Assembly (NCBI GenBank): GCA_944324435.1
Contig: CALUWH010000002.1
Location: 62,001-126,000, forward strand
DNA length: 64,000 bases
From: Candidatus Gastranaerophilales bacterium
GTDB lineage: Bacteria; Cyanobacteriota; Vampirovibrionia; Gastranaerophilales; Gastranaerophilaceae
Direction: 5' to 3'
The notes below the pieces were generated by a model. It worked only from the letters and a program-made list of their open reading frames with translations, searched no databases and was not told the DNA's origin. The position numbers and the translations under genes are program-made. Of this stretch, positions 2,052-56,453 are shown piece by piece (position 1 is the first letter of the stretch; each line of letters opens with the position of its first letter).

Positions 2052-2079
2052 TTGATTTTTGCAAATATATCGCTATAAT
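2052..2079 (+). promoter_or_regulatory. Promoter predicted to give a leaderless transcript
   Basis: TTGATT (2052-2057), a 16-bp spacer and a perfect TATAAT (2074-2079). The expected start of transcription, 7 nt after the -10 box, is 2086, which is the A of the ATG of the next gene. There is no Shine-Dalgarno sequence between the -10 box and the ATG. Confidence 0.6.
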
Positions 2080-15774: not shown

Positions 15775-15780
15775 TATAAT
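15775..15780 (+). promoter_or_regulatory. -10 box predicted to give a leaderless HD-GYP transcript
   Basis: TATAAT at 15775-15780 puts +1 at 15787, one nt before the ATG. There is no Shine-Dalgarno sequence and no good -35 element. Confidence 0.5.
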
Positions 15781-24418: not shown

Positions 24419-26626
24419 TTAATGATTTGAAGTTTTTTTATTCTTTTTCTGCGCCTTAACATGTTTTTTTGTAAACTGCTGGGGCGATAGGCTGTAAGAT
24501 GTTTGAATACGTTTTACGCTTATAACATCAGGCATTGCCTGCAGTGCTGTCATAACTTTTCTTAACGTATCAATATTATCCAGCTCGATTCCAAGCTCAA
24601 TAATACCAACCTTTCCTTTTGATTTAACGTTTGCAGAGGTTATGTTAGTGTTGTTATCAGAAACAACCCCGATGACATCTTTGAGCAATCCTAATTTTTC
24701 TGCTGTTTCAATACGTATTGTGGTGCTGTAAGTCTTGTTAATATTATTTCCTGACCAATGGATATCCATTAATCTTTCTACAGGAACATTTTCAAGCGTC
24801 TTGCAGTCAAGCCTGTGAATAGTGACTCCCTTAGAGCGTGTAACCACTCCGACAATCGGTTCTCCCGGGATTGGCGAGCAGCATCGTGCAAAAGAATATA
24901 AAAGCCCCTCAAGCCCGACAATATCTTTTTCAGACGCTTTTCTTGGTCTGTGCTGTGTAGGGCTTTCCTGCTTAGGCGGTTTTCTCAGGCGGTTAACAAT
25001 TTTGTTAACAGTTGTCTCTCCGTATCCTAAAGCTGCAAATAAATCATCAGCGCTCACATAATTCATTTGTTTTGCAACTTTATCAAACTCACCGTTTTTA
25101 ACATAATCGTCAAAAACCGTTTTTGTGAGTTCATGTTCAAGGTTTGCTTTTCCGATATTAATATGGTCTTCTCTGTTATTCTTTTTGTACCATTGTCTTA
25201 TCTTTGAAGCAGCCTGTTTTGTTACGACAAAATTAAGCCAGTCAAGACGCGGCGCCGCGACTTTTGATGTCATAATCTCAACAATGTCGCCGTTTTTAAG
25301 CTTCGTATCCAGCTGTGCAATACGTCCGTTAATCAAAGCCCCGACGGTTTTATGTCCTACATCAGAGTGAATACGATAAGCAAAGTCAACTGGAGTTGCA
25401 CCCTGCGGAAGGTCAATTACATCTCCGCCCGGTGTGAAAGCAAATACCTGATCCGAGAATAAGTCAAGCTTAACAGAGTTAACATAATCTTCGGCGTTTT
25501 GTGTGTCTTTGTTATATTCGACCAGTTTCCGCATCCACGAAAATTTGATGTCGCTTGCTGAATCGGCCTTTTTAGAGCCTTTTTCTTTGTATCTCCAGTG
25601 TGCGGCAATACCATACTCAGCAATTTCGTGCATTTCCCACGTTCTTATCTGTACTTCAAGAGGCTTTTGTCTTGGCCCGATAACGGATGTGTGTAAAGAT
25701 TGATACATGTTGCTTTTTGGCATGGCAATATAATCTTTGAAACGCCCCGGAATCGGTTTAAATTGGGAGTGGATTAACCCCAGAACCTCGTAGCATTCTT
25801 TTTCCGTATCAACGATTACACGAACTGCTGTGATGTCATAAAGGTCGTGGAATGCGACATTCAGACGCTGCATTTTATTATAAATACTGTAATAATGCTT
25901 GGCTCTGCCGGTTATTTTAGCGTTAATTCCGCTTGCCTTAACATCTTTGGAAATTTTATCAATTAAAAGCTTAACTGTCATGTCACGTTCAGCTTTTTTT
26001 TGCGAAACAAGCTGGGCTATTTCATAGTATTTGTCCGGATGAAGGTACTTGAGAGATAAATCTTCAAGTTCAGCCTTGATTTTCCCGACACCTAATCTGT
26101 TCGCAAGCGGAGCAAATATGTCCAGTGTCTCTTGCGCAATTCTCTGCTGTTTTGCAGGAGCCATATAATTAAGCGTCCGCATATTATGCAGCCTGTCAGC
26201 TAGTTTCAGGAAAATAATCCTTACATCGCTTGCCATCGCAATAAACATTCTGCGGAAATTCTCTGCCTGACGCTCCTCTGTGGATTTGAACTGCAGTTTC
26301 CCGAGCTTTGTAACGCCCTGCACAAGGTTTAAAACATCCTCGCCGAACAGTTCCTTAATATCTTCCGGCTTTGCGTCAGTATCTTCAAGAATATCATGCA
26401 GAAAACCCGCCATAAGAGTGTGCTTATCGGCCCTGAGTCCGATGAGTATTTTTACAACCTCCATCGGATGAATAATATAAGGCTCCTCAGAAACCCTGTA
26501 TTGACCTGAATGCAGCTTTTTTGCAAATTCAAAAGCCTTTTCAAGTTCTTCTATATCGCTCTCCTGGTATTGCTGTTCAACGAGCAATGCCCGAATTTCG
26601 TCGAATGAGATGACAAACTGTTCCAT
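24419..26626 (-). CDS. rel: Bifunctional (p)ppGpp synthetase/hydrolase
   Basis: 735 aa, RelA/SpoT family. The hydrolase HD domain is complete (HPMEVVKIL, FLHDILEDTD, KLADRLHNMRTL). The synthetase domain has GRFKDYIAMPKSNMYQSLHT and VQIRTWEMHEIAEYGIAAHW. TGS (VFAFTPGGDVIDLPQGATPV), the RCCSPIPGEPIVG zinc-finger-like region and a C-terminal ACT domain (IGVVSDNNTNITSANV) follow. Intact catalytic residues in both halves indicate a single Rel enzyme controlling the stringent response. No Shine-Dalgarno sequence precedes the ATG, and the promoter abuts it. Confidence 0.95.
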   Translation of the reverse strand: MEQFVISFDEIRALLVEQQYQESDIEELEKAFEFAKKLHSGQYRVSEEPYIIHPMEVVKILIGLRADKHTLMAGFLHDILEDTDAKPEDIKELFGEDVLNLVQGVTKLGKLQFKSTEERQAENFRRMFIAMASDVRIIFLKLADRLHNMRTLNYMAPAKQQRIAQETLDIFAPLANRLGVGKIKAELEDLSLKYLHPDKYYEIAQLVSQKKAERDMTVKLLIDKISKDVKASGINAKITGRAKHYYSIYNKMQRLNVAFHDLYDITAVRVIVDTEKECYEVLGLIHSQFKPIPGRFKDYIAMPKSNMYQSLHTSVIGPRQKPLEVQIRTWEMHEIAEYGIAAHWRYKEKGSKKADSASDIKFSWMRKLVEYNKDTQNAEDYVNSVKLDLFSDQVFAFTPGGDVIDLPQGATPVDFAYRIHSDVGHKTVGALINGRIAQLDTKLKNGDIVEIMTSKVAAPRLDWLNFVVTKQAASKIRQWYKKNNREDHINIGKANLEHELTKTVFDDYVKNGEFDKVAKQMNYVSADDLFAALGYGETTVNKIVNRLRKPPKQESPTQHRPRKASEKDIVGLEGLLYSFARCCSPIPGEPIVGVVTRSKGVTIHRLDCKTLENVPVERLMDIHWSGNNINKTYSTTIRIETAEKLGLLKDVIGVVSDNNTNITSANVKSKGKVGIIELGIELDNIDTLRKVMTALQAMPDVISVKRIQTSYSLSPQQFTKKHVKAQKKNKKTSNH

Positions 26627-26635
26627 AATATAGTT

Positions 26636-26664
26636 ATAATAGTTTTTTTTTTAGAAATTTTCAA
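26636..26664 (-). promoter_or_regulatory. Promoter of rel with a T10/A10 tract in the spacer
   Basis: On the minus strand TTGAAA (26664-26659), a 17-bp spacer containing ten A in a row, and TATTAT (26641-26636). Transcription is expected about 3 nt before the ATG, so the mRNA is nearly leaderless. A run of ten C (G10 on the plus strand, 26665-26674) touches the -35 box. Confidence 0.55.
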
Positions 26665-26711
26665 GGGGGGGGGGAAGATGCTGAGAAATTTAGGGGATTT
26701 GATTTAAGTTG

Positions 26712-26751: not shown

Positions 26752-29403
26752 TTAACTTACAAATTCCATTGACACCTTGGAAAGAATTTCTTCGAGCTTG
26801 GAAGCATCTTTTATACCTCCCTGTGCAAAATTCGGACGTCCGCCGCCGTTTGCGCCTGTCGCTCTTGCAACTTCGCCAACGATTTTTCCTGCATTAACTC
26901 CGCGTTTTACAAAGCCCTCTGTTACTTTTGATATAACCATTCTTTCATTTGCAAGAACAATTACACATTCACCAAGCTTGTTTGCAAGAAGTTCAACACC
27001 AGCCTTAACCGCGTCAGCGTCTATGTTTTCAATCTTTGATATAAACAGCTTTCCGCCGTCAATTTCCTGAGCCTTAGAAACAAATGTTGCAAACTTGCTT
27101 TTTGCCATCTCGGCTTTTGTCTGCTCCAGCTCCTTTTGAAGCGATTTATTTTCTTCCAGAACTTTTTCCACGCGTTCAAGAACCTCATCAGTATGGACTT
27201 TGAACTTAGCTTCCAAAGTATCGGAAATTTTAGCTTTGTTATTCAAATAATCAATAGCCGCTTGTGCAACAACAAGTTCAATTCTTCTTGTTCCTGCGGC
27301 AATAGCGCCTTCAGAAACGATTTTTACAAGTCTCAAATCACCTGTATTTTTAGCGTGAGTTCCGGCGCAGAATTCCATTGACACAACTTCATGCTCACTG
27401 TGATGATGGTGGCCTTTGCATTGTCCGCCATGACAATTACATTTCTTAGCGCCGCCGATTGAAACAACACGAACCTCGTCTTCGTATTTTTCGCCAAACA
27501 GAGCGGTTGCACCTGTAAGTTTTGCCTCCTCAATGCCCATAATCTCGGTTTGAACAGGAAGTTTTTCACCAATCCATTTGTTCATAATATTTTCGGTCTT
27601 TTGAACTTCATCAGGTGTCATTGCGCGAGAGAATGTAAAGTCAAATCTCATCCTGTTTTCTTCAACCTGAGAGCCAGCCTGCTTAACTTCATCTCCTAGA
27701 ACCTTAATCAATGCAGCCTGCAAAAGGTGTGCTGATGTATGGTGAACCCTGATTTGTGCTCTTCTTGCAGAATCAATATGAGCCAAAACATAGTCGCCCA
27801 CATTAATTTCACCGTTCACAACCTGGCATCTGTGAACAAACAAATGGTTAACTTTGAAAGTTGTTAAAACTTCCGCTTTTAGATTTTCATTAACGAGAAC
27901 ACCGCTGTCACCAACCTGTCCGCCGCACTCTGCGTAGAAAGGAGTTCTGTCTAATACAATATCAACAAAACCTTCACCTTCAATCAAAGCTAAAACCTTA
28001 GCTTCGCACGCGTCTTCTTCGTATCCGACAAAATCAGTCGAGCCGACCTGCTCTTCAACTTTAGCGTACTTAATATCACCGGTTACGGAAATTTTAGCAG
28101 TAGCAGCCTTTGCTCTGTCTTTCTGTTCCTGCATTGCAGCCTTAAAGCCATCCTCATCAACCGACAAACCGTTTTCTGCAGCGATTTCCTTGGTTAATTC
28201 AAATGGGAAACCGTAAGTATCATAAAGTTTGAAGGCGCTTTCGCCATCAATATCTTTTTTGTCCGCAATAAACTCATCAAGCATTTTGTACCCTCTATCA
28301 AGAGTTTTTGCAAACCTTTCTTCTTCTTTCTTAATTACATCAATAACCTTAGCCTTATTCTTAACCAGTTCAGGATAAGCCTCGCCGTACAAGTCAACAA
28401 CCGTATCAACCAGCTTATATAAGAAAGGCAAATCCATACCCAGAATCTTGCCGTGTCTTAGAGCACGTCTCAAAATCATTCTGAGAACGTAGCTTCTGCC
28501 TTCATTACCAGGGATTACACCGTCTGATATAAGGAATGAAACGCATCTTACGTGGTCTGTGATAATTCTCAAAGATATATCAGTTTTTTCAGATTTTTTG
28601 TAAGGTACACCGCTCATCTCAGAAACTTTATCCAAAATAGGTTTGAGAAGGTCTGTCTCAAAAGTTGATGCAACACCCTGACAAACCATTGTGATACGCT
28701 CTAAACCCATTCCGGTATCAACATTTTTCTTCTCAAGAGGGGACTGATTACCTTCTTCGTCCTGATAAAGTTCAGTAAACACAAGGTTCCAAATCTCAAC
28801 CCATCTGTCGCATTCGCAGGTATCGATTCCGCAATCATCCGAACACTTATACTGTTCGCCTAAATCATAATGAATTTCAGAGCAAGGACCGCAAGAGCCT
28901 GACGCACCAGGAGGACCCCAGAAGTTATCTTTTTTACCTTTTCTCTTGATACGCTCTGCAGGAACGCCTATGCTTCTCCAGATTTCGTAAGCTTCGTCAT
29001 CCGTTTCAAAAATTGTAATCCACAACCTGTCTTTATCAAGCTTCAATACTTCGGTTACAAATTCCCACGCCCACGGAATAACTTCTTTTTTATAATAATC
29101 ACCAAAAGAAAAATTACCGAGCATTTCAAAGAAAGTATGATGCCTTGGAGTTCTTCCTACATTTTCTATATCAGAATCTTTGCCGCCGGCTCTTGCGCAT
29201 TTTTGGCAAGATGTTGCTCTTGCAGGTTCATAAGGACATTTCTGAATCCCCAGAAATATCGGCAAAAACTGAAGCATACCGGCTGTTGTAAGCAATACAG
29301 TAGGGTTGTCAGGCACGAGGCTTGAGCTTTCAACAATCGTATGCTGATGTTTATCTTTAAAATAATCTAAGTATAATTTTCTGATTTCATTTCCTTTTAG
29401 CAT
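26752..29403 (-). CDS. alaS: Alanyl-tRNA synthetase
   Basis: 883 aa, full length. Class II core: FKDKHQHTIVESSSLVPDNP, TTAGMLQFLPIFLG, CQKCARAGGKDSDIENVGRT, RHHTFFEMLGNFSFGDYYK. The editing domain keeps HHTSAHLLQAAL and EFCAGTHAKNTGDL, with the zinc-binding Cys and His. The C-terminal DHHA1 domain ends GANGGGRPNFAQGG. A His/Cys-rich insertion (KKCNCHGGQCKGHHHHSEHE, near residue 660) inside the editing domain is unusual and may bind metal. Start after TAAAGGGATTAATT. Confidence 0.97.
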   Translation of the reverse strand: MLKGNEIRKLYLDYFKDKHQHTIVESSSLVPDNPTVLLTTAGMLQFLPIFLGIQKCPYEPARATSCQKCARAGGKDSDIENVGRTPRHHTFFEMLGNFSFGDYYKKEVIPWAWEFVTEVLKLDKDRLWITIFETDDEAYEIWRSIGVPAERIKRKGKKDNFWGPPGASGSCGPCSEIHYDLGEQYKCSDDCGIDTCECDRWVEIWNLVFTELYQDEEGNQSPLEKKNVDTGMGLERITMVCQGVASTFETDLLKPILDKVSEMSGVPYKKSEKTDISLRIITDHVRCVSFLISDGVIPGNEGRSYVLRMILRRALRHGKILGMDLPFLYKLVDTVVDLYGEAYPELVKNKAKVIDVIKKEEERFAKTLDRGYKMLDEFIADKKDIDGESAFKLYDTYGFPFELTKEIAAENGLSVDEDGFKAAMQEQKDRAKAATAKISVTGDIKYAKVEEQVGSTDFVGYEEDACEAKVLALIEGEGFVDIVLDRTPFYAECGGQVGDSGVLVNENLKAEVLTTFKVNHLFVHRCQVVNGEINVGDYVLAHIDSARRAQIRVHHTSAHLLQAALIKVLGDEVKQAGSQVEENRMRFDFTFSRAMTPDEVQKTENIMNKWIGEKLPVQTEIMGIEEAKLTGATALFGEKYEDEVRVVSIGGAKKCNCHGGQCKGHHHHSEHEVVSMEFCAGTHAKNTGDLRLVKIVSEGAIAAGTRRIELVVAQAAIDYLNNKAKISDTLEAKFKVHTDEVLERVEKVLEENKSLQKELEQTKAEMAKSKFATFVSKAQEIDGGKLFISKIENIDADAVKAGVELLANKLGECVIVLANERMVISKVTEGFVKRGVNAGKIVGEVARATGANGGGRPNFAQGGIKDASKLEEILSKVSMEFVS

Positions 29404-35511: not shown

Positions 35512-35542
35512 AAATACTTATATTACATAATTATAAATACTT
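35512..35542. promoter_or_regulatory. Direct repeats in the AKR/LysR divergent region
   Basis: AAATACTT occurs at 35512-35519 and 35535-35542, 23 bp apart, about two helical turns. The second copy overlaps the -35 box of the LysR gene. This is the expected place for an autoregulatory LysR site. Confidence 0.4.
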
Positions 35543-35569
35543 GACAGGCATATCTAAAAAATGTACCAT
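35541..35569 (+). promoter_or_regulatory. Promoter of the LysR gene, predicted leaderless
   Basis: Consensus TTGACA (35541-35546), 17-bp spacer, TACCAT (35564-35569). +1 is expected at 35576, one nt before the ATG. No Shine-Dalgarno sequence. Confidence 0.6.
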
Positions 35570-46669: not shown

Positions 46670-46675
46670 TATAAT
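46670..46675 (+). promoter_or_regulatory. -10 box predicted to give a leaderless epimerase transcript
   Basis: TATAAT 46670-46675 puts +1 at 46682, one nt before the ATG. There is no Shine-Dalgarno sequence; the -35 region is not convincing. Confidence 0.5.
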
Positions 46676-47813: not shown

Positions 47814-48362
47814 CTAGTGATATTTATTATACAAAAGCTTCATGTCCTCGTCTGTTAAATACTGCAAGGAGTCTAAATCATAAGGGTACATTATACTTCC
47901 TTTGTTAGCAGAGTGACCCAAACCGATGGCATGCCCTGCTTCATGAAGCATAACTCCATAAATATGGTCTTTAGGACGTGTAACTATTTTCCTTACATAC
48001 TGTCCGCCATCAAAAGTCCGTAAATATTCTTTTGTGCCAATCGTAACAAAGGCTTTATAATACTGACCGCCCCTAACCATTGTCTCAGTACAGCCTACAG
48101 CTCCGGCATCATTACAATTTGCGACAAAGTCAACAAATTCAACTTCAATGTTGGCGCTGCTCGGACTGCTTACAAACTTAAAACGCACCAAAGATTTCGA
48201 ACGATCTTCCCACGCTTCAAACGCCTGTTTCATAAGTTTACTCATATTACCGTACTCGGGTATATATACATATATCGGCAATCCTACCCAGCGAGGCTTT
48301 TCCAGTGCAAAACAAGTAATCGGTGTTAATAATAACAATATTAAAATTATAAACTTTTTCAT
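47814..48362 (-). CDS. Secreted matrixin-like (M10-type) metalloprotease
   Basis: 182 aa from ATG 48362. Signal peptide MKKFIILILLLLTPITCFAL. The zinc motif HEAGHAIGLGHS fits HExxHxxGxxH, and the Met-turn is in GSIMYPYDLD. The pattern PIYVYIPEYGNMSKLMKQAF then AFEAWEDRS near the N-terminus is the usual start of small matrixin-like domains. There is no propeptide or Cys switch before the catalytic domain. A secreted or periplasmic protease; substrate unknown. It has a consensus promoter whose +1 falls next to the ATG. Confidence 0.88.
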   Translation of the reverse strand: MKKFIILILLLLTPITCFALEKPRWVGLPIYVYIPEYGNMSKLMKQAFEAWEDRSKSLVRFKFVSSPSSANIEVEFVDFVANCNDAGAVGCTETMVRGGQYYKAFVTIGTKEYLRTFDGGQYVRKIVTRPKDHIYGVMLHEAGHAIGLGHSANKGSIMYPYDLDSLQYLTDEDMKLLYNKYH

Positions 48363-48369
48363 ATTTTTA

Positions 48370-48399
48370 ATTATACTATTTGTATTCAAATACTGTCAA
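48370..48399 (-). promoter_or_regulatory. Consensus promoter of the metalloprotease gene, leaderless
   Basis: On the minus strand TTGACA (48399-48394), 18-bp spacer, TATAAT (48375-48370), then 7 nt to ATG 48362. Expected +1 is 48363. No Shine-Dalgarno sequence exists. Confidence 0.75.
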
Positions 48400-56435: not shown

Positions 56436-56453
56436 GGCTGTATTTTACCACAT

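Follow-up and report, generated by a model that had tools for sequence, protein, structure and literature searches.

Zheng et al. 2011 (PMC3160421) defined TA-led genes by a TANNNT/TATAAT signal that precedes the start codon by about 12 nt; these share with the genes described here the -10 signal, the lack of a Shine-Dalgarno sequence, the presence of Shine-Dalgarno-led genes alongside them and the switching of mode between orthologues. The same study found many Cyanobacteria to have neither Shine-Dalgarno-led nor leaderless genes, and the StartLink paper (PMC9581028), which quotes a share of 21.6% for the bacterial species predicted to use leaderless transcription, places the Cyanobacteria in a weak-signal group. 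In Deinococcus-Thermus, as described by Zhong et al. 2025 (PMC12340547), -10 boxes are adjacent to the ORFs, only a few bp before them, and act group-wide as promoters of leaderless mRNAs, an arrangement shared with ours; it concerns about 30% of the ORFs and was established by RNA-seq and reporters. Mycobacterium tuberculosis (Cortes et al. 2013, PMC3898074) likewise has a leaderless class beside a leadered one, experimentally mapped in a very distant lineage. Unlike these two, the class considered here is inferred from sequence alone; compared with the 30% in Deinococcus-Thermus, it comprises roughly 4–6% of the ATG-start genes. Within the same phylum, 19 gene TSSs, a handful of cases, were judged leaderless in Synechococcus elongatus UTEX 2973 (PMC6091082).

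The initial annotation of this DNA had regarded leaderless translation as established in Actinobacteria and Deinococcus, which is too narrow, as computational surveys (PMC3160421, PMC9581028, PMC12340547) place leaderless genes in many bacterial groups. That it knew of no description for this lineage agrees with the literature searched, in which we found no paper joining leaderless expression with Melainabacteria, Gastranaerophilales or Vampirovibrio and no mapped 5' ends for the order. Zhong et al. scanned all bacteria, and the Gastranaerophilales may lie within that scan, unremarked. Since a -10 box abutting a leaderless gene is well known from other groups and the lineage is unreported in the literature searched, the present case is one of a known kind in a new lineage.

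The window, as we call the whole 64,000-nt stretch of DNA that was analysed, comes from a Candidatus Gastranaerophilales MAG of 1.95 Mb (98.9% complete, GC 37.6%). From the geometry, enrichment, Shine-Dalgarno exclusion and conservation observed below, we infer that housekeeping-sigma promoters abut the ATG of a set of genes and produce leaderless mRNAs, constituting a family-wide second mode of expression beside the Shine-Dalgarno mode; we place the probability of this reading at about 0.87. The sigma-70-type -10 box ends 6 or 7 nt ahead of the start codon; RNA polymerase would begin transcription on the first base of the ATG, or on the base preceding it, to give an mRNA without a leader, and the ribosome would engage the 5'-terminal AUG with initiator tRNA, without Shine-Dalgarno pairing. 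Single genes may have an additional promoter farther upstream.

Table 1. Promoter-like sites and the genes behind them in the 64,000-nt window
Feature	Position	Strand	Remarks
TTGACA (-35), ATG 48362	48394-48399	-	spacer to -10 box, 18 nt
-10 box TATAAT of the 48362 gene	48370-48375	-	ends 7 nt 5' of ATG
48362 gene, predicted leaderless; small secreted Matrixin/M10-like metalloprotease	47814-48362	-	PF00413, E 9.9e-12
TATAAT, 6 nt to ATG 2086	2074-2079	+	product without Pfam match, hydrophobic N-terminus
TATAAT, 7 nt to ATG 15788	15775-15780	+	product an HD-domain protein
TTGACA of the 35577 gene	35541-35546	+	perfect -35 box, spacer 17 nt
TACCAT (-10), 7 nt to ATG 35577	35564-35569	+	product a LysR-family regulator
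TATAAT, 7 nt to ATG 46683	46670-46675	+	UDP-GlcNAc 2-epimerase, WecB-like
TTGAAA-N17-TATTAT(AAC), ATG 26626	26633-26664	-	RelA/SpoT homologue; -10 boxes overlap
TAAAAT with TG-G ahead, 6 nt to ATG 56435	56442-56447	-	TPR protein; weak case

The founding arrangement at 48362, TTGACA-N18-TATAAT with 7 nt to the ATG, reads on the minus strand as first described, and its companions at 2086, 15788, 35577 and 46683 are confirmed with a -10 box at 6 or 7 nt from the ATG. The genes at 26626 and 56435 had been listed as less clear; their sites are present and weaker than the rest. At 26626 (rel) the TATTAT ends 9 nt, and the overlapping TATAAC 6 nt, before the ATG. The 56435 gene begins 18 nt behind the preceding gene and is possibly operon-internal, and single weak sites such as this one may be due to chance.

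Gene-level counts covered 864 kb (the window and 800 kb more of the same genome, about 44% of it) with 720 genes, whose starts were set by our own simple caller from coding score only, the upstream sequence being ignored. With d as the number of nt to the start, exact TATAAT was found 13 times at d=6 and 10 times at d=7, as against 2 in total (0–1 per distance) at d=3–5 and 8–11 and a mean of 2.3 at d=12–59. Against these 23 genes, dinucleotide shuffling of the same upstream regions (200 shuffles) gave a mean of 2.8 and a maximum of 9. A broader set of -10 boxes, defined as TANAAT, TATANT or TATTAT ending 6–7 nt before an ATG, comprises 41 of 621 ATG genes, with an expectation of 6 from adjacent to 16 from far distances, and an EM fit to this genome assigned 6% of the ATG genes to the class. 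Roughly 4–6% of ATG-start genes, about one in twenty, are predicted to be leaderless, which extrapolates to an estimated 55–90 for the whole genome. In the 1.95 Mb, exact TTGACA-N16-18-TATAAT occurs 8 times versus once for the reversed pattern. Comparison of the genome-wide count with expectation, proposed at the outset as a refutation test, was made by gene on 44% of the genome and by pattern on all of it and did not refute the observation; the claim of a genome-wide class of promoters placed for leaderless mRNAs is supported.

Membership in the class was defined by hexamer and spacing only, and Shine-Dalgarno sequences, the base at -1, the extended -10 element and the orientation of neighbours played no part in it. 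As had been claimed, these genes are free of Shine-Dalgarno sequences (0/41 versus 299/580, or 52%, of the other ATG genes; p=6e-13, a value that overstates the evidence, as the two signals, when at the same place, exclude each other partly by sharing bases). The extended -10 element TGn precedes 18 of the 41 boxes but only 50 of 310 -10-like boxes lying farther upstream (p=2e-4), and the upstream neighbour is divergent in 23/41 cases as against 149/580 elsewhere (p=9e-5). Across the class the promoter is of sigma-70 type, with strong -10 and TGn elements and a weak -35 box; the 48362 gene has the exact consensus pair. Sigma-70 starts prefer a pyrimidine followed by a purine, so that a T before the A is expected if the A of the ATG is +1. 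A T does stand at -1 in 35 of the 41 genes versus 244 of 580 (42%) elsewhere (p=4e-8), a feature that is not specific by itself, as a leadered control gene has it in 75 of 77 orthologues.

These same features bear on the alternative of near-leaderless mRNAs, in which transcription would start 1–5 nt upstream of the ATG and the leader, though present, would be of insufficient length for Shine-Dalgarno pairing. A start 1–3 nt before the ATG would fit the data equally well, above all for rel, where the -35/-10 pair with a 17-nt spacer ends 9 nt before the ATG and would give a leader of about 2–3 nt. Most members, however, have d of 6–7 and a T at -1, which locates +1 either at the first base of the start codon or at the base preceding it, and we consider this alternative improbable.

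The geometry was followed in orthologues as a supporting criterion: lepA, uvrB, rel and wecB largely keep it, the HD-protein and LysR genes do so in part, and 48362 and priA do not. For lepA the best -10 box lies at d 6–7 in 24 of 30 genomes, with Shine-Dalgarno sequences in 0/30 and 21 distinct linkers among the 24 exact cases. The uvrB gene has it at d 6–7 in 17 of 30 genomes by a strict score and at d 8 in 2, with a single Shine-Dalgarno sequence (1/30); 2 orthologues have a GTG start close behind TATAAT in the same arrangement. In wecB either TATAAT at d 6–7 or TAAACT at the same place is found, again with a Shine-Dalgarno sequence in 1/30. The inclusion of Rel is upheld by TTGAAA-N17-TATTAT adjoining the ATG in most of about 30 orthologues, among which no Shine-Dalgarno sequence was seen; the gene is absent from 80 loci gathered around a window query gene because gene order breaks directly after that query. 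As the spacing is fixed while the linker varies across genera, the spacing itself would appear to be under selection. The method also detects leadered genes, since a control gene (26752-29403) was scored as such, with 0/77 at d 6–7, Shine-Dalgarno sequences in 57/77 and -10 boxes at d 19–39.

In the partly conserved cases, the LysR gene has a -10-like box at d 6–7 in 21 of 30 orthologues (Shine-Dalgarno in 0/21), and 5 of the other 9 have a Shine-Dalgarno sequence. The HD-protein gene has the box at d 6–7 in 9 of 22 by the strict score, while in most of the others TATAAT lies 18–35 nt upstream, in some cases together with a Shine-Dalgarno sequence; this split between two arrangements indicates that the initiation mode has switched. 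The priA gene was considered as a conserved member and rejected: apart from this genome, at most one relative may show the arrangement, and the upstream context of most orthologues differs, often with Shine-Dalgarno-like sequences.

Two of these promoters have further features. In wecB orthologues from many genera, a TAAACT -10 box together with a conserved TTGCAT -35 region replaces TATAAT at the same distance, and we take this to be a conserved non-consensus promoter as judged by its sequence. The TTGACA of the LysR gene lies within the palindrome ATGCTTGACAGGCAT (window 35537-35553), kept in most orthologues, which looks like a putative binding site of the regulator itself and would imply autoregulation.

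Start positions are likewise central to a second alternative, that the starts are mis-assigned and the true in-frame start lies downstream with its own Shine-Dalgarno sequence on a normally leadered mRNA. Some start calls are indeed uncertain; for the 2086 gene the caller narrowly preferred a start at 2116. Yet a Shine-Dalgarno-led in-frame start occurs within the next 30 codons in only 1/41 of the class versus 30/580 elsewhere, alignments of LepA and of UvrB across genera begin at residue 1–5, the signal-peptide-like N-terminus of the 48362 product begins at the proposed ATG, and the peak stays when only unambiguous starts are used (5 at d 6 and 1 at d 7, against a mean of 0.56 elsewhere); we regard this explanation as very unlikely.

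Spread across the phylum was assessed by comparing TATAAT-N6-7-ATGAAR with TATAAT-N9-10-ATGAAR as control spacing. The 49 genomes of the window's family gave 1877 matches at N6-7 versus 736 at N9-10, with N6-7 higher in 49/49. Photosynthetic relatives, as sampled, showed no excess of N6-7 over N9-10 and no genome-wide spacing peak for TATAAT-N6-7-ATGAAR, which sets the UTEX 2973 cases apart from the family-wide pattern. An EM motif search in the other f1 genomes converged on the Shine-Dalgarno sequence. In f2, another family of the same class, 3 genomes gave 33 versus 23 matches, an excess partly hidden because the N9-10 control overlaps a broader profile: among 397 sampled genes no sharp 6–7 peak was found, and -10-like boxes are broadly in excess at 6–9 nt before the ATG without Shine-Dalgarno sequences. 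Shine-Dalgarno use in f2 (loci L159-L168 and L289-L308) is 19% versus 43–47%, and f2 possibly has a looser leaderless mode. Chance placement of a hexamer that is common in an AT-rich genome (GC 37.6%, with about 2 TATAAT per position in the 720-gene set) is already refuted as an explanation of the whole class by the 23 genes against 2.8 in shuffles, the nearly empty neighbouring distances, the 49/49 genomes and the orthologue conservation.

The 48362 gene itself was examined as a conserved case and set aside: an 80% identical orthologue of the same genus has an AGAGG-type, Shine-Dalgarno-like sequence upstream, another has neither signal, and among further homologues TATAAT at 6 nt was found in one distant homologue only, with mostly other upstream signals. 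Its promoter is near perfect, and leaderless expression would therefore still be expected for the gene in this species, the arrangement having arisen recently and locally. In several genera, M10-like secreted proteases akin to its product are encoded in tandem as diverged copies.

With respect to gene content, the class members named by NCBIfam are MutS, DnaG, leucyl aminopeptidase, FolK, Tag, RecF, LepA, PriA, PrmA, dihydropteroate synthase, UvrB, histidine kinase, TatD, AnmK, RsgA, MiaA, ketoacyl-ACP synthase, amino acid carrier, NAD kinase, RsmI, CoaBC and a YifB-type ATPase. To judge from these names, they are mostly housekeeping, with DNA repair prominent. The initial annotation's view that regulators and exported proteins mark the class was not borne out, given such members and hydrophobic N-termini in 4/41 versus 58/580 elsewhere. 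One rather speculative reading is that the conserved leaderless set is biased to low-abundance housekeeping genes, was acquired after the split from the photosynthetic Cyanobacteria and would enable joint control when ordinary initiation slows; its members would include MutS, UvrB, RecF, PriA, DnaG and Tag for DNA replication and repair, and LepA, RsgA, RsmI, PrmA and Rel for the ribosome and stringent response.

Runs of 8–10 C or G are rare in the 864 kb, where 11 of 12 are intergenic (shuffled mean 2). They include those at window 26665-26674 (rel), L096 19081, L118 10728 (coaBC), window 33647, a G8 directly before an ATG, and window 4287; 3 lie directly ahead of a -35-like TTG and 1 where a Shine-Dalgarno sequence would be placed, positions that hint at phase-variable tracts in promoters or ribosome-binding sites.

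With the predicted class, leaderless expression would reach into a large gut lineage that is uncultured, the non-photosynthetic sister of the photosynthetic Cyanobacteria, and gene finders gain a start signal for Gastranaerophilales genomes. The genes lepA, uvrB, rel and wecB form a short list on which transcript mapping can test the prediction directly.
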